A DNA stretch of 64,000 bases. It comes from Spirochaetales bacterium (GTDB lineage: Bacteria; Spirochaetota; Leptospiria; Leptospirales; Leptonemataceae). The translations under genes and the position numbers were made by a program. The notes under the pieces are model-generated. The model saw only the letters and a list, made by a program, of their open reading frames with translations, did no database searches and was not told where the DNA came from. Positions 16,622-59,757 of the stretch are shown piece by piece (positions within the stretch are counted from its first letter, which is position 1; every line of letters begins with the position of its first letter). The stretch lies in NCBI GenBank assembly GCA_015075425.1, contig JABTUL010000002.1, forward strand, positions 682,001 through 746,000. The letters run 5' to 3'.

Positions 16622-17050
16622 TTGAATCCCCAGGTGACAGAAACCATCCGCTCTCTTGCGGGAGTCAATCTCAAAGAGGGCACGGAAATTTTCACTGAGG
16701 GTGCCATGCCGGATGATAATATGTATTTTGTGTTATCTGGGGACGTGGGCATTTTCAAAAAACGTGGTGGTGTGGACCATGAGATGGAGCGCCTGTCTAC
16801 GGGATCTTTCTTTGGAGAGATGGCGCTGATCAATGAGCGGCCCCGGCTGGCAACCGCCAGGGTCCTCTCCCGTGAGGCCCGACTGGCACGTATGAATCGG
16901 GAAATGCTGCTCAAACTGGCCGGAGTAAGTCCGGAGTTTGTTTTCATGCTGCTTAAACATGCCATCACCCGCCTTCTGGCCGCCGAAGATAAGCTGCAGC
17001 GCGTACGCGAAGAGCTTTCTACAAAAACGGGAAAACGAAAAATCTATTAA
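16622..17050 (+). CDS. Stand-alone cyclic-nucleotide-binding protein (first of tandem pair)
   Basis: 142 residues, apparently from a TTG start. It is almost entirely one cNMP-binding beta barrel with the phosphate-binding cassette 'FFGEMALINERPRLATA', which keeps the Gly, Glu and Arg needed for ligand. A short C-terminal helical tail follows ('LLAAEDKLQRVREEL'). There is no DNA-binding, kinase or channel domain, so it is a minimal sensor or adaptor. It follows the DUF35 gene by 5 bp and is similar to the next gene, suggesting tandem duplication. A partner elsewhere in the operon or the cell is likely. Confidence 0.87.
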   Translation: MNPQVTETIRSLAGVNLKEGTEIFTEGAMPDDNMYFVLSGDVGIFKKRGGVDHEMERLSTGSFFGEMALINERPRLATARVLSREARLARMNREMLLKLAGVSPEFVFMLLKHAITRLLAAEDKLQRVREELSTKTGKRKIY

Positions 17051-17064
17051 CCCGGGGTCAACCT

Positions 17065-17478
17065 TTGTCACTGAATATTTTTGAGTATGTCAACAACCTG
17101 GCTGTGGATCTGCGCAAGCAGGGAGATGTTGTGTTTCGCCAGGGCGAGGCATCAGACGGTAAAATGTATTTTGTAGCAGATGGCGAACTCAGCGTAGAGC
17201 GGACCATCGACGGAGAAACCCATGAAATCAGTCGGTTGCGCGAAGGCGATTTTTTTGGAGAGATGGCCATTTTGAACAAACAGCCACGCACGGCAACCAT
17301 CACGGTCGTGAGCAAGCAAGCCAAGATGGGTTATGTGGATGAAGGCCTCTTTCTGCGCATTGCCCGCTCCAATCCTGTTTTCAACTATTCGCTGCTCAAG
17401 CTTGTCATCCAGCGGATCGGAACGGTAGAAGATGCGATTGAATTGACCCTGGCCGAGCTCGGCCAGGGGTCCGATTAG
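17065..17478 (+). CDS. Stand-alone cyclic-nucleotide-binding protein (second of tandem pair)
   Basis: 137 residues, apparently from a TTG start, 14 bp after the first copy. The phosphate-binding cassette 'FFGEMAILNKQPRTATI' is intact. Like its neighbour it lacks an effector domain and ends in a short helix. Sequence similarity is strongest through the barrel. It ends the run of eight co-directional genes and overlaps the convergent lipoprotein gene by 4 bp; its last codons contain a 22-bp perfect palindrome. Confidence 0.87.
   Translation: MSLNIFEYVNNLAVDLRKQGDVVFRQGEASDGKMYFVADGELSVERTIDGETHEISRLREGDFFGEMAILNKQPRTATITVVSKQAKMGYVDEGLFLRIARSNPVFNYSLLKLVIQRIGTVEDAIELTLAELGQGSD
17447..17468. 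terminator. 22-bp perfect GC-rich palindrome at convergent ends
   Basis: CCCTGGCCGAG (17447-17457) is followed directly by its reverse complement, centred on GAGCTC, and outer bases extend the pairing with one bulge (GACC...GGTC). It lies in the last codons of the second cNMP gene, just before the end of a convergent gene. No U-run follows, so it may be a bidirectional hairpin that limits read-through or 3' decay rather than a textbook intrinsic terminator. Confidence 0.5.
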
Positions 17479-52732: not shown

Positions 52733-53773
52733 ATGAAATACTGGACCGCCCTGGCCTGCCTGCCTCTTGCTATTTTTGCCGGAGAGTATGGCCAGCCCGC
52801 GGAGCGGACTATTTTTCGAGCGATCGAACGCAATGATCCTGTTTCTCTTTTAGAAATACTGGGCGCTCACAAAGAAAGTGTCAGCTTCCCGGATTCCCGG
52901 CATCACTCACCGCTGATGCGCGCCATTTTGAAAAGAAACCCGGGGCTGGTGGGGCAACTGCTGGAAAGCGGTGCCGATGCCAATCCTCCGGGTGCTCCTC
53001 TGCCGCCGCTGCATCTGAGCATCCTCGTGGAAATCGAACCCATTGTTCTGCGACTGCTGGAGAAAGGTGCTGCCGTAGATGCGCAAAGTCATGCAGGCCA
53101 CAGTCCCCTGCATATTGCAGCCTTCAGCGGAAATGCTTCAGCCACGCGAATGCTACTGGACCGCAAAGCACGCACCGATCAAGCGGATGGGCAGGGCCGC
53201 ACACCCCTGCACCTCGCGGCAATCCGGGGCCACACCGCTATCATCGAGCAACTCCTGCTGGCCGGTGCGCCCCGCGAGGCCCGGAGTCTTCAGGGACTCA
53301 CCCCCTTCCTGGAAGCGGTGATTTCAGGGCAGATACCGGCAACTCGAACGTTTCTACGCACAGAAGATAAAGAAATACACAAAACAACGCTGCAAGCGAC
53401 GGATCCGGTCGGACGCAACGCATTGCATTTAGCAGCAGAGATCGACTCAGCAGAGCTGATCGTGCTCTGCCTTGCCCAGGGCCTGCCCATCGATTCGCGG
53501 GATCGATCCGGCCTTACTCCACTTCATATTGCTGCCCGGGATGCCAGGGAAGGAGCGCTGCGTGCTCTGCTCGATGCCGGGGCCAATCCGCATATACTCA
53601 GCTCATCTCTGCAAACACCACTGCAACTCCTGCAGTCCCAGAGCCCATCTTTCGCCAACCGCAGCCGCGGGTCCAATGCAGCCCGAATACAATTTTTTCT
53701 GGAGCAGGCCGCATTTCAAAAGAGCATCGATCGCCACGAGTATATTCCCGACAGTAAATGGCCGTTGCATTGA
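52733..53773 (+). CDS. Periplasmic ankyrin-repeat protein
   Basis: 346 residues. A short signal sequence ('LPLAIFAGE') is followed by about seven ankyrin repeats, e.g. 'AGHSPLHIAAFSGNASATRMLLDRKA', 'QGRTPLHLAAIRGHTAIIEQLLLAGA' and 'SGLTPLHIAARDAREGALRALLDAGA'. The exported ankyrin proteins known from other bacteria support periplasmic enzymes, notably catalase. The last 30 or so codons (from 53681) are nearly identical in DNA to the 3' end of the acyl-CoA ligase gene at 56495-56580, so the C-terminus may be of recent, borrowed origin. It ends the six-gene operon. Confidence 0.92.
   Translation: MKYWTALACLPLAIFAGEYGQPAERTIFRAIERNDPVSLLEILGAHKESVSFPDSRHHSPLMRAILKRNPGLVGQLLESGADANPPGAPLPPLHLSILVEIEPIVLRLLEKGAAVDAQSHAGHSPLHIAAFSGNASATRMLLDRKARTDQADGQGRTPLHLAAIRGHTAIIEQLLLAGAPREARSLQGLTPFLEAVISGQIPATRTFLRTEDKEIHKTTLQATDPVGRNALHLAAEIDSAELIVLCLAQGLPIDSRDRSGLTPLHIAARDAREGALRALLDAGANPHILSSSLQTPLQLLQSQSPSFANRSRGSNAARIQFFLEQAAFQKSIDRHEYIPDSKWPLH
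53681..53765 (+). repeat. Direct-repeat copy A (inside ankyrin gene)
   Basis: 53681-53744 matches 56495-56558 at 54 of 64 positions, with 9 of the 10 differences being transitions; weaker similarity with indels runs on to the shared AAATGGCC near 53765. The two copies have the same orientation and flank the PQQ gene. Copy A encodes the ankyrin protein's C-terminus. Confidence 0.85.
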
Positions 53774-53824
53774 ACCAGGGAAGCTGTCAGGAGGCGAAAG
53801 CCCGTTTCAGAACTAAACCTCCAA

Positions 53825-56419
53825 TTATTTAGCCTCAATCTCCTGGCGATAAGCCGGATAGGTGTCCACCATATAGTAAGCGCGCACCAGGCCCTTGACC
53901 GATCCCGGTTCGTAGGTAACTGTAACTTTATTTACATTTCCAGCACTGTCCTTGCCAATCTTCATTCCGCGCGCATAGTCGGCTTTGATGGGCTTGCCTG
54001 TACTGGCATCAACAAGCAAAAGGCCAAAAACATGCTCTTCCTCCTTGAGCTTTCCACCAACTATGTCCACACTTGCTGATGTGTCACTGCAAGTTATCTT
54101 TGCCTGACCGATTTGATCCGGATCCGGACCGGTGACAGAGCCCGATCCCCACAGGGACATGTTCATCCCACCGAACACCGGCATATGCCCGGTGGAGAAA
54201 TCGGTCAGTCCCATGATCTTCAGGAATTTGCCGTAGAATTCCAGATCATCGCCAAGAACCAGTGCATTCATGGCCGCCCCGTTCAGAACATGTCCCTTCT
54301 CTGGATGGACTTGCGTGGCAACACGATAAAGTCCAAAGGGCATATCCCAGGAACCGATGAAGCTGAGGAGAAAGCTCTTATAGTAAAAAAGAGTAAGCAA
54401 CCCGCCGTCATAATCAAGATTCAATACAAAACGATCTTTAAGATCTGGCGCAACAACAGTCTTCCCGATTGCTCCATCCAGTTTTCCGGGCACGACCCAG
54501 AGAATAGCGTTCTTGCCCTGGCCCTCAACAAAACCGGCCAGATAATGAAGTGAATCAAATCCGATCTGATTCCAGGAAGGGAGCATGGTCGGATTGGGGG
54601 CTGCCAGCCGACTCAATTCCAGAACCGTTGAAGGATCACCGGTCCTTGCCGGAATCTGATAGGGCATATCCCCGGAATTGCGCGCCCCTACATTGAAGGT
54701 AAAGGTCTTCTCATAGGAGCCGCCTTTTCTACCGCCAAAAAACTTAAGGCCAAATCGGGAGAGATCCGTGATATAATCGCCCTTGAGGGTTACGCTCAGC
54801 GCCCCTCCTTCAGGCCCGATCCACTTCTCCTGAGGAACGATCGTAACAAAGCGCCGATTTGCAGCCACCTGCACCAGGGTTTTCGGGTCACCGCTGAGCG
54901 ATACCTGCAGACTTTCTGCATCGAGTGCAGACAGGACGGTGTCACCATTCTTTCTCACAAAAAGCGTAAAGGTCAAAGGTTCATTGGCAGCGATTTCTTC
55001 CGGGGGCTCCACGGGCAATCCGCCGAACGGCGTTGTCCAGACCATAAAAACGCCTTCGGCCGGCAGGATTTCACCGGGCCCAATAGTGGAGCGGGGATCC
55101 CTGCGGCCGGCTGGTGTTAGGGGATAGTCATACGGTACGAAAAATATACCACCATTCTCACCGGCAATGTAAATGCCGTCATGACCCAATCCTGGCGAAC
55201 CGTTCAGGTCATTCCGATCCTCCTGGATGCATTGATAGGCCCAGCGCAGTTTTCCATCCGGATTGATAGCAAATAGCTTTCCTTCTCCCGAACCCACATA
55301 GATGATCCCGTTACCGTCGATGGCTGGCGAAGAACGAATCGGCTCCAGGGTATCAAAGGCCCAGATCTGCTGTCCGTCCGGACCCAGGGCATAAACGGTC
55401 CCGTCTGCCGAAGGCTGGATGATGTTTCCATCCGATTGCTGGGCCGGGCTGCTATAAATATGGTCACGGGTGCCGAACTTCCAGAGCTGCTTGCCATTAG
55501 CCTGGGCATAAGCCCTGACAATCCCATCATAGCCGCCCAGTATCAGAGCGCCGTCCGGATCATTTGATGTTAGAAGGGGCGACGCAGCATTGGAACCCCA
55601 TCCACCGGCAGTCCAGATGGATTCACCGGTCTGCGCATCATAGGCAAATACATTTTTTAAGGCGATGTACTGCGAACCATGAAAAATCCGCCCCGTTTGC
55701 GTATTCACCGCCGGAAGCGACCAAATCATTTCATTACCAACGAACACAGTCTTTCTTTCGCCGTTATTGCGATCAACAGCATAGGCAAGGTAATTATCGT
55801 TGGGCACGAGCAATGTTCCATCCTTCAGCATGGCAACATTCCCCTCAAACCAGTCTACATTATAGGTTTTCACGCCGAACTCCTCCTTTACCTCCTGGAC
55901 TGTGTGGGCCTTAAATTTCCAGAGCACTTTACCGTTGCGCCTGTCCAGGGCGTACAGGTGCGCATCTCCAGAACCAAAATAGACCCGTCCTTGATCGTCC
56001 AGCAGAGCCGATGAATCGATAACCTCCCCCGTAGCTGTTTTCCATTTCAGCTTGCCGTCCACGCCAATGGCATAAAAATAATGATCCGCCGATCCAATGT
56101 ATACGGTTCCCTCTTTATCAACAACGGCAGAACTGAAGATCCCCTTGCCGGTCCGGAATTCCCAGGGAGTCCGGTTGGTGATTTTGGGAATGACTGCGGT
56201 CCGTCCGTTTTGCAGCTCGTTGGCCCGAAACTTGGGCCAGGGGCTTTCGGGATCCAGAGGAACGCCGTAAGAGAACTTTCCCTCCTCTACTGGAACTTCC
56301 TTTGCCGGCAACATATTGTAGGTTCCAAACGGAATCGCAGCAAAAACATAGTAAAACAGAGCAGCAATGATAAATATGGGCAGAATATACCATTTTTTGA
56401 ATTTACCGACGGATGTCAT
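53825..56419 (-). CDS. PQQ-type beta-propeller membrane protein
   Basis: 864 residues. An N-terminal membrane anchor (about 10-28) precedes a beta-propeller made of repeats such as 'GTVYIGSADHYFYAIGVDGKLKWK', 'GRVYFGSGDAHLYALDRRNGKVLWKF' and 'GIIYVGSGEGKLFAINPDGKLRWAY' (about 90-420), like PQQ/BamB domains. The C-terminal 400 residues include an Ig-like segment and 'GMNMSLWGSGSVTGPDPDQIGQAKITCS', not recognised. No PQQ-binding Cys pair is evident, so it is more likely a structural or binding protein than a dehydrogenase. The gene lies between direct repeats A and B. Function unknown. Confidence 0.83.
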   Translation of the reverse strand: MTSVGKFKKWYILPIFIIAALFYYVFAAIPFGTYNMLPAKEVPVEEGKFSYGVPLDPESPWPKFRANELQNGRTAVIPKITNRTPWEFRTGKGIFSSAVVDKEGTVYIGSADHYFYAIGVDGKLKWKTATGEVIDSSALLDDQGRVYFGSGDAHLYALDRRNGKVLWKFKAHTVQEVKEEFGVKTYNVDWFEGNVAMLKDGTLLVPNDNYLAYAVDRNNGERKTVFVGNEMIWSLPAVNTQTGRIFHGSQYIALKNVFAYDAQTGESIWTAGGWGSNAASPLLTSNDPDGALILGGYDGIVRAYAQANGKQLWKFGTRDHIYSSPAQQSDGNIIQPSADGTVYALGPDGQQIWAFDTLEPIRSSPAIDGNGIIYVGSGEGKLFAINPDGKLRWAYQCIQEDRNDLNGSPGLGHDGIYIAGENGGIFFVPYDYPLTPAGRRDPRSTIGPGEILPAEGVFMVWTTPFGGLPVEPPEEIAANEPLTFTLFVRKNGDTVLSALDAESLQVSLSGDPKTLVQVAANRRFVTIVPQEKWIGPEGGALSVTLKGDYITDLSRFGLKFFGGRKGGSYEKTFTFNVGARNSGDMPYQIPARTGDPSTVLELSRLAAPNPTMLPSWNQIGFDSLHYLAGFVEGQGKNAILWVVPGKLDGAIGKTVVAPDLKDRFVLNLDYDGGLLTLFYYKSFLLSFIGSWDMPFGLYRVATQVHPEKGHVLNGAAMNALVLGDDLEFYGKFLKIMGLTDFSTGHMPVFGGMNMSLWGSGSVTGPDPDQIGQAKITCSDTSASVDIVGGKLKEEEHVFGLLLVDASTGKPIKADYARGMKIGKDSAGNVNKVTVTYEPGSVKGLVRAYYMVDTYPAYRQEIEAK

Positions 56420-56494
56420 GATAAGCAGTTTCCCCTAACTATTAAAACCTGAAACTACAGGACAGCCCTTACCTGTCTACTTTTTTACAGCGCG

Positions 56495-56580
56495 GCCCGA
56501 ATACAGTTTTCTCTAAAGCGGGCCGCACTGCAAAAGAACATCAATCGCCGCGAGTATACATCTCCCCAATCAAATGGCCA
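56495..56580 (+). repeat. Direct-repeat copy B (3' end of acyl-CoA ligase and beyond)
   Basis: Partner of copy A. Its 56541-56580 part codes for the last residues of the acyl-CoA ligase on the - strand, which look native to the family ('GHLIGEMY'), while 56495-56540 lies beyond the stop. Coding constraint makes B the likely ancestral copy. Read on +, B also encodes a peptide resembling the ankyrin C-terminus. Confidence 0.85.
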
Positions 56581-58349
56581 TACTTCTCTGCGATAAAATG
56601 CCGTTTGATGGAAAGTTTGGCCGTAAGCTCACTGCCAACGGTAAAAACTTCCGGTAACAGTCGAAAATCAACTATTCTTTCAAAGGATTTAAAGCCGGCA
56701 GATTCGTTGATGCATTCCTTTATCGCGGCGCGAATCTCCTGTGCAGCCCCCGGATGCCTGGCTATAGTGGCCAGATCTTCCCCGTAGCGCGACAGGGCCT
56801 CTGCGTCCGGAACAATCAAGGCCCCCAGGTATTTCTGATCCTGACCCACAACCATACACTGAGAAATCAAAGGTGATTGCAGCAGACGATTCTCAATCGG
56901 AACGGGTTCAACATTCTCCCCTCCCAGTAGTACAATGGTTTCCTTTGTCCGCCCGACGATGCGCAAGCAGCCGTCTGGCATCATCATGCCCAGGTCCCCC
57001 GTATTGAGCCAGCCTTCACTGATTACCGCTGCCGTTGCTTCCGGATTTTTATAATAGCCCAGCATCACCTGGGGACCGCGAACATGAATTTCCCCTTTTT
57101 TCCCCTGAGCATCGAGCCCCGGCCAGATCACTTTTTTAGTCTGCGGATCCACCAGCCGTAAATCTGTATCCGGGTAAACGGGACCGACGGTGCCCACCAC
57201 CAGTTGTTCTGGTGTGCGCACCGCAAGGACCGGTGAAGTCTCCGTCATCCCATAGCCTTCAAGAACCGGAATGCCGATACTATTGAAGAACAGGTCCACA
57301 TGGAGTGGCAAGGCACCTCCGCCGGAAACCGATGCTTTCAATTTCCCGCCGGTGGCCTGCCGGATTTTGGCCAGAACCAACCAGTCCAGAGCACGGTAGG
57401 GCAAATAAAGCAAAGGCAACGCCAGCTTATAAGAAGCACTGCTGTTTTTCGCAGTATAGTAAGCAGAAGCCAGCAGCGTTGCCAGCCGGAAGAGCAGCCG
57501 TTTGCTGGCCGGGCCGCGGGCCACTGCCGATCGTATACCGGCGTAAATACTTTCCCATAGACGCGGCGCGGAAGCCATGAAGGTCGGCTTTACGATCGTC
57601 AGGTCCTCTTTGAGAGTACGCACACTCGAATAGTACGTTGCACAACCTCTGGAGATGGCAATAAGCTCGAAAATTCTCTCAAAGATGTGCCATACTGGTA
57701 AGATGGACAGGATGCGTTCCTCGGCTGAAATTTCCATGGGCAGACGCTTGATCTGCGAGAGCAGATTGCCATGGGATAGCATGACGCCCTTGGGTTGCCC
57801 TGTTGTCCCGCTGGTATAGATGAGAGTGAATAGATGTTCCGACGCAATTGCCGTCAGACGGTCCTGAATCGTCTGATTGCCTCTGGACAGGAGTTCCACG
57901 CCACGTTCCAGAAGATCTAGGAATTGCCGGGCATTGCTATCTCTTCCTTCCATCAGGATAACCGTTTTGAGTACAGCGGATTCCTGTAGGGCAGTAACTC
58001 GCCGCAGGGTACTTTCGTTTTCCACAATAAGAATTTTCATATCTGAATGCGGAACGATATGCCGAATGTCATCTGCCGTTATGTCTGTTCCTCTGGGCAC
58101 ATCTGCCGCTCCGCAAAGGGTGATCGCCATGCTCGATACTATCCATTCATAGCGATTGTCGGCAAAGAGACCAACCTTGTCACCAGATGATAAACCCAGC
58201 TCCGCGAGCGCCGTTGCCAGAGCCAGAGCGTCATCGTAAAGTTGACCGTAACTCCTGCTCTGGAATTCCTTTCCTTTGCGCGTGGCAAAGGCCGGACGAT
58301 CCCGGTACTTTCTTGCTGATTCTTGATACATGTGAGCGATGCTTTGCAT
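56541..58349 (-). CDS. Long-chain fatty acyl-CoA ligase (AMP-binding)
   Basis: 602 residues from the ATG at 58349, which has AGGAGG 5 bp upstream; the open frame continues upstream without support. Adenylation motifs are 'LIYTSGTTGQPKGVMLSH', 'GYGMTETSPV', 'NTGDLGMMMPDGCLRIVGRTKETIVLLGGENV' and a C-terminal 'KLSIKRHFIAEKYG' containing the catalytic Lys. It activates fatty acids to acyl-CoA at the membrane surface. It follows the AraC regulator gene by 80 bp on the same strand, so that regulator may control it. Confidence 0.96.
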   Translation of the reverse strand: MQSIAHMYQESARKYRDRPAFATRKGKEFQSRSYGQLYDDALALATALAELGLSSGDKVGLFADNRYEWIVSSMAITLCGAADVPRGTDITADDIRHIVPHSDMKILIVENESTLRRVTALQESAVLKTVILMEGRDSNARQFLDLLERGVELLSRGNQTIQDRLTAIASEHLFTLIYTSGTTGQPKGVMLSHGNLLSQIKRLPMEISAEERILSILPVWHIFERIFELIAISRGCATYYSSVRTLKEDLTIVKPTFMASAPRLWESIYAGIRSAVARGPASKRLLFRLATLLASAYYTAKNSSASYKLALPLLYLPYRALDWLVLAKIRQATGGKLKASVSGGGALPLHVDLFFNSIGIPVLEGYGMTETSPVLAVRTPEQLVVGTVGPVYPDTDLRLVDPQTKKVIWPGLDAQGKKGEIHVRGPQVMLGYYKNPEATAAVISEGWLNTGDLGMMMPDGCLRIVGRTKETIVLLGGENVEPVPIENRLLQSPLISQCMVVGQDQKYLGALIVPDAEALSRYGEDLATIARHPGAAQEIRAAIKECINESAGFKSFERIVDFRLLPEVFTVGSELTAKLSIKRHFIAEKYGHLIGEMYTRGD

Positions 58350-58429
58350 ACGAACCTCCTGTTGATGGATGAACGTAGCACACGGAACACCGATCTGTCG
58401 CCTCACTGTATAATCCGGGACGTCCTGGT

Positions 58430-59458
58430 TTATAAAGGGAGACCGTGCCGGCGCACATCGGCAGCCGTCATGCCGGTTTCCTTCCGGAAGGCCCGGTGGA
58501 AGGCTGAACGGGAATTAAAGCCCACGGCTAAAGCCACAGAAAGCACTGATCTACCGGGTTCCGACAGAAGCAACTCCCTCGCTTCGTCAACCCGAAATCG
58601 GTTGATGTAACGGTAGAAAGTCACGCCCAGGCGATCATTCAATATTTCAGAAAGCTGATGCAAGCTTATGCCGATCTCGGCGGCAAAGCGCGGCATGGTA
58701 TAGTCTTCATCCTGGTAGGCCCGCTCTACTGTCATGATCTCGTCCATTTTGCGTAGAACCGCTTCCACATCCAGTCCGCGCAAACGTGATTTCTCATAGC
58801 GAGATTTCTTGATATCTTCCTGTAAATCGATCCACACATCGGGATGCTTCAAGCTGTAAAGAAATGCAAAGTAAAGAATGCCAGGTAATATTGCGGCCGA
58901 CGCCAGGGTCAGCAATGCATAGCCAGCCAGCTGGCCGGTAATGCCGAGCAACAAATCCAGTCCCGAACATAGAATCAAAAGAAAAAGCGGCCGATACTTT
59001 TTCCGGGCCGCAGGACTGAGTTCCAGCAACATACCCGATAGGGAACTCATAAAATACAGAAAAACATGAACTTTTGTTATAAAGTGAAGTGATGGGGAAA
59101 CCACTTTAATCCACTCCGGCCTGACGGGGCCAGCGTATAGCAGGAACATGGCCAGCAGAACAGCCGGCGCAAAATGGAAGTGGTGAAGTGTGCGCCCGCC
59201 AATGCGCCAAAGAAGCCAGGCTGCTGCCGCAGGTCCGATACTCAGCACAAACGGCAGATGCACGATCGCAAGGAGAGGTGCGGCTGCGACCAGACCGGAC
59301 GCCGCGGCGAAAGCACTCAGGAGCCAGATGCCAGAGCAGGCAAGAGCTGCGGCGGCCATAACCGCTTTCCGACCCTGCACCACGCAAATGCCTGCGGCCC
59401 ACAAAAAGGCGAACCAGCCTCCGGAAAAAAACCAGGCACCCAGTAAACTCTGGAGCAT
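58430..59458 (-). CDS. Membrane-bound AraC-family regulator
   Basis: 342 residues from the ATG at 59458; a longer frame upstream is not supported. About seven transmembrane helices (residues 5-215) are followed by a linker and a C-terminal AraC domain with 'MPRFAAEIGISLHQLSEILNDRLGVTFYRYINRFRVDEARELL' and 'VALAVGFNSRSAFHRAFRKETGMT'. Such membrane-tethered regulators are frequent in Leptospira relatives; the ligand probably reaches it in the membrane, fitting its fatty-acid-ligase neighbour downstream. Regulation of that ligase is inference. Confidence 0.9.
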   Translation of the reverse strand: MLQSLLGAWFFSGGWFAFLWAAGICVVQGRKAVMAAAALACSGIWLLSAFAAASGLVAAAPLLAIVHLPFVLSIGPAAAAWLLWRIGGRTLHHFHFAPAVLLAMFLLYAGPVRPEWIKVVSPSLHFITKVHVFLYFMSSLSGMLLELSPAARKKYRPLFLLILCSGLDLLLGITGQLAGYALLTLASAAILPGILYFAFLYSLKHPDVWIDLQEDIKKSRYEKSRLRGLDVEAVLRKMDEIMTVERAYQDEDYTMPRFAAEIGISLHQLSEILNDRLGVTFYRYINRFRVDEARELLLSEPGRSVLSVALAVGFNSRSAFHRAFRKETGMTAADVRRHGLPL

Positions 59459-59565
59459 AGCCCGATTGTGATCATCGGTTGAACGAAACAAGTGAAAAAT
59501 TTTTCTGACCGGCCGGACTTTCTGTGAAGAATATCTTTCTAATTCCTGGGGCGCGTAAACCCTGA

Positions 59566-59757
59566 TTGGGTCACGAGGATTTGCTGTATATTCGCAATCG
59601 GATGGAGAAATATTCCGATTTGCCGATGGATCTCGCCGACGCATCGCTAATGGCGCTTGCAGAAGCCAGGCAGATTCGCGAAATTATCAGCCTGGACGCA
59701 GATTTCAGCATTTACCGCACACTCAAGGGCAAAGTGCTGCACAATCTTCTCCCATGA
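59566..59757 (+). pseudogene. VapC-like PIN-domain remnant
   Basis: 63 codons that match only the C-terminal half of PIN ribonuclease toxins: 'KYSDLPMDLADASLMALAE' and 'IISLDADFSIYR' contain late acidic residues of the PIN active site. The N-terminal half with the first catalytic Asp is missing, and upstream sequence to 59458 shows no frame that restores it. No antitoxin gene is adjacent. It therefore looks like a decayed toxin-antitoxin module between a regulator and an outer-membrane protein gene. The rest of the 59459-59892 gap shows nothing recognisable. Confidence 0.8.

Follow-up and report, generated by a model that had tools for sequence, protein, structure and literature searches.

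A PQQ-propeller gene bordered by two diverged copies of an acyl-CoA ligase 3' end

In the window (the whole stretch of 64,000 nucleotides that was analysed), a gene for a PQQ/BamB-type beta-propeller protein lies between convergent ankyrin and acyl-CoA ligase genes, on the ligase strand, and both of its borders carry a diverged copy of a ligase-type 3' end. The best reading of this arrangement, to which we give a probability of roughly 0.6, is that a PQQ gene belonging to the bacterial family itself was inserted between these neighbours and that the ligase end was duplicated in the process. We infer in addition that a single event was involved, that the PQQ gene arrived together with the duplication, and that the hairpins found in the copies are mRNA 3' ends. 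The coordinates are collected in Table 1. The order on the plus strand is PSD1/DUF1549-1553, DUF1501, YceI and ankyrin, and that on the minus strand is AraC regulator, acyl-CoA ligase and PQQ propeller, with copy A following the PQQ stop at a distance of about 60-150 nt. GC content was even throughout the locus.

Table 1. Features of the locus, with positions numbered within the window
Feature	Position	Strand	Basis
Ankyrin-repeat protein, 346 aa	52733..53773	+	Pfam Ank_2 6e-47
Repeat copy A: ligase-type 3' end and hairpin, antisense in ankyrin 3' end	53678..53763	-	56/67 vs copy B, gapped extension; 11-pair hairpin
PQQ/BamB-type beta-propeller protein, 864 aa	53825..56419	-	Pfam Beta-prop_ACSF4 1.3e-41, PQQ_2 2.6e-27
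Repeat copy B: ligase's own last codons, stop, 3' hairpin	56492..56579	-	Alignment; hairpin fold
16-17-bp hairpin directly 3' of ligase stop	56484..56535	-	Minus-strand fold
Long-chain acyl-CoA ligase (AMP-binding), convergent to ankyrin gene	56541..58352	-	Pfam AMP-binding 1e-79
AraC-type regulator	58430..59644	-	Pfam HTH_18

The repeat copies and the native end of the ligase

The ungapped block of the repeat (53678-53744 versus 56492-56558) was identical at 56 of 67 positions and differed by 10 transitions and 1 transversion, which fell 3/4/4 over the three ankyrin codon positions. The original prediction had given 10 differences, nine of them transitions, over the 64 positions of 53681-53744 and 56495-56558, and this was reproduced exactly; its proposed extension to about 53765 and 56580 was borne out by an alignment with small gaps which reached 53763 and 56579 (AAATGGCC; 39 of 5000 shuffles scored equally for this extension). 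The upstream end was sharp, with no homology detected 5' of the ungapped block, where 445 of 1000 shuffles were equally good. When either copy was used as query against the 4.13-Mb genome, the sole match was the other copy (E about 8e-14), the next match having an E value of 0.5. A widespread genome element had been named as the finding that would speak against the duplication, and the whole-genome search yielded two copies only. These results support a two-copy duplication and not a genome-wide element; the many genomic copies typical of REP or MITE elements were not found, the count being two. The repeat was also the longest direct-repeat family detected within the window. A second, weaker direct repeat of 58 nt and 71% identity was observed at 16807-16864 and 17250-17307, in neighbouring short ORFs.

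Copy B was found to hold the ligase stop (56541-56543, minus strand) and, as originally claimed, the last ligase codons. Acyl-CoA ligase homologs were present in all 22 family genomes, and when 84,980 named genomes were searched with the ligase, no relative closer than the family level was returned. The family has 13 further ligase loci at which the pattern KRHVVTEKYxxLIxxMY stood at or near the C-terminal end, and the C-terminus of the ligase in the window, SIKRHFIAEKYGHLIGEMYTRGD, matched the conserved family end EKYxxLIxxMY. Most of these 13 loci carried a hairpin no more than 75 nt 3' of the stop which was stronger than nearly all shuffles; several of these were terminators with a T-run, and the one at locus L177 was without. 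Because both its C-terminus and its 3' hairpin match the family pattern, copy B can be taken as the native 3' end of the ligase, and copy A is therefore a copy of ligase-type 3' DNA. As judged by sequence comparison, copy A is a duplicate of the ligase 3' end lying on the strand opposite the ankyrin ORF.

The locus in relatives and the distribution of the PQQ gene

Comparison of the locus in relatives, which had been proposed as a check, showed the PQQ gene to be absent from this place in every relative examined, and the gene order ankyrin-PQQ-ligase was found in none of them. The AraC-ligase pair was adjacent in at least 5 family genomes (loci L172, L174, L177, L179 and L180) with varying downstream neighbours, and neither a PQQ nor an ankyrin gene stood beside this pair in the relatives examined. 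On the other side of the locus, the PSD1-DUF1501 pair was conserved in relatives, again with no PQQ or ankyrin gene downstream, and the larger flanks of DUF1501 in relatives contained no orthologous ankyrin gene. Some relatives carried the PSD1-DUF1501 pair as a tandem duplicate, YceI lying close by on the opposite strand (L247, G003:C62, 33-4394).

With respect to the PQQ gene itself, it was present in 5 of the 22 family genomes (the window included, and one of the five a fragment at a contig end), and it had different neighbours in the loci that could be read. Its distribution in the phylum was very patchy (18 of 393 genomes), and the proteins were 53-66% identical over their full length across families of the phylum. 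In the PQQ tree the four full-length family sequences formed one clade with support of 99/99, and the gene is therefore the family's own, and has probably been moved or lost often and not arrived recently from afar. A recent transfer from another family was considered, and the tree gave it no support. Members of two families (f23 and f31) did not form single clades in the tree, and transfer between families is possible there.

The hairpins and the ankyrin tail

The hairpin of copy B begins 5 nt after the ligase stop and folds at about -33 kcal/mol, a value reached by 0 of 100 shuffles. It resembles an intrinsic terminator in being a GC-rich hairpin 3' of a stop codon; a T-run directly after the hairpin was missing at both copies, a terminator scan found none at copy B, and on the minus strand A-rich sequence comes next. 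The minus-strand hairpin of copy A retained the inner 11 pairs, 4 of the 5 outer pairs being broken, and copy A as a whole folded no better than its shuffles. Four of the inner 11 pairs differed between the copies and all four were still paired on the minus strand; one was a double change from A-U to G-C and three were of the G-U type, in which pairing would fail on the plus strand. These counts come from two sequences, for which a shuffle control is uninformative. The continued pairing of the differing positions on the minus strand is a hint that the hairpin may have been maintained on the strand that carries the ligase and PQQ mRNA. The pattern of the hairpin core matched only the two copies in the genome, and Rfam gave no credible match. 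Just before copy B, a terminator-like hairpin was also observed on the plus strand at 56460-56487, with GGACAGCCCTTACCTGTCT followed by ACTTTTTT; no large plus-strand gene ends there, and the hairpin may be what is left of an earlier gene end, or a product of chance.

The other strand of copy A encodes ankyrin residues 316 to about 343, within the last approximately 31 codons of the ORF. Alignment of ankyrin homologs, also proposed originally, was performed with the C-terminal 126 residues, which had matches in 243 of the 393 phylum genomes, and among the matches listed none went past residue 325 of 346. The best ankyrin match among 40 relatives was 33% identical and no orthologous ankyrin gene exists among them, so that the lack of the tail in homologs is uninformative. 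No ankyrin signal was detected in the tail by Pfam or by an HMM built from the repeats of relatives. The best second-helix match within the last 58 ankyrin residues was SNAARIQFFLEQAAF, nearly all of it in copy A, and the second-helix profile score of the tail had p values of 0.05 when compared with shuffles and 0.14 when compared with windows of real proteins, a suggestive but weak sequence signal that the tail is a native ankyrin helix.

Structure prediction with AlphaFold2 gave a pLDDT of 36 for the single ankyrin sequence; the model used was obtained from an alignment with 23 homologs and had a pLDDT of 89. In this model tandem 33-residue helix pairs of the ankyrin-repeat type were present, Foldseek recognized an ordinary ankyrin fold, and the predicted tail helix (residues 311-330) had a mean pLDDT of 84-94. 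The helices at 296-302 and 310-334 form the last pair, and the tail therefore closes a half repeat. Such a predicted placement as final ankyrin helix shows compatibility, not descent.

These results bear on the proposal that the event cut the ankyrin gene, which would have gained its last approximately 31 codons anew from the antisense strand of the ligase 3' end with its hairpin. The identity of the tail DNA to ligase 3' DNA argues for such recruitment, as do the lack of listed matches beyond residue 325 and the missing ankyrin signal; the tail nevertheless completes a half repeat in the predicted structure, the best place for a second helix falls within it (if only at p 0.05-0.14), and the C-termini of ankyrin proteins are generally poorly conserved. 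We consider such recruitment, which is one of two variants of the favoured reading, possible but rather unlikely. Because the predicted structure makes the tail the last helix, it may equally be the original ankyrin end overlapping the ligase, and we lean very slightly towards an ankyrin frame that overlapped the ligase end in antisense even before the insertion, as against a tail acquired through it. The original claim that the tail comes from ligase 3' DNA therefore held in part: copy A is ligase-type when set against the family C-terminus and hairpin, and the event may have created a new tail. It seems to us doubtful that a ligase 3' end and its mRNA hairpin, once duplicated, supplied their antisense strand as coding sequence for the closing ankyrin helix, with the same DNA still forming, on the other strand, a hairpin at the end of the PQQ transcript.

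Proposed history of the locus and comparison with known systems

According to the favoured reading, an old insertion would have brought the PQQ gene between the convergent ankyrin and ligase genes, to a site at the ligase 3' end or next to it, and this end would have been duplicated. Two ligase 3' ends (the last about 12-14 codons, the stop and the 3' hairpin) would then have been left flanking the PQQ gene. Copy B would still terminate the ligase as it did before the insertion, the hairpin of copy A, behind the PQQ gene, could act as the 3' end of the PQQ transcript, and the ankyrin protein would have its final helix and its tail encoded by the other strand of copy A. The divergence of 16% between the copies points to an old event, provided that the two ends were alike at the outset. 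Possible mechanisms include the repair of a staggered break and recombination involving the end of a related ligase gene. No integrase or transposase was recognized in the 2.8-kb segment, where the domain search covered the sole large ORF, PQQ, which had propeller domains only; the small ORFs there overlap it. We know of no mobile element that makes duplications of such size.

An integration of the att type was also considered, in which the ligase 3' end was the recombination site of a small element, copy B being the replacement end and copy A the displaced original beside an ankyrin gene that had always overlapped it. Direct repeats stand at both borders and one of them, copy B, completes the target gene; the repeat moreover spans the 3' end of a gene together with a palindrome, like known attachment sites (PAISt, PMC4057263), and a divergence of 16% would be natural for two ends of different origin. 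The segment is nevertheless without an integrase, and the repeat has diverged evenly over a considerable length, with no identical core; we regard such an integration as quite improbable. Two independent landings of a dispersed palindromic element, suggested by the GC-rich inverted repeat in both copies, were rejected as highly implausible since no third copy was found genome-wide by similarity or by hairpin pattern and the repeat contains ligase codons.

A duplication associated with insertion, the reading preferred here, is a rearrangement ordinary in kind, of which the antisense-encoded helix is the mildly interesting part. Though small, this rearrangement can be dated roughly by the 16% difference between the two copies of a single sequence, and it links the insertion of a gene, a duplicated mRNA 3' hairpin and a protein end encoded in antisense. 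Among known systems it can be compared with islands at the 3' ends of protein genes such as PAISt, whose integration site is a palindrome at the bacA 3' end (PMC4057263). The locus resembles such islands in having a gene 3' end and palindrome at both borders with the target gene intact, and differs in having no integrase, one cargo gene only and a repeat diverged by 16% with no identical core. As in convergent overlap or overprinting, a ligase-type gene end occupies one strand and the ankyrin C-terminus the other, although the overlapped copy has lost its ligase function here and the ligase end still in use is found at a distance of 2.8 kb. In its domain matches (Pfam PF13570 and PF13360) and in having full-length homologs of 53-66% identity within the phylum, the PQQ protein is like other PQQ/BamB-type propellers, and it is unusual in its location only, not in itself.
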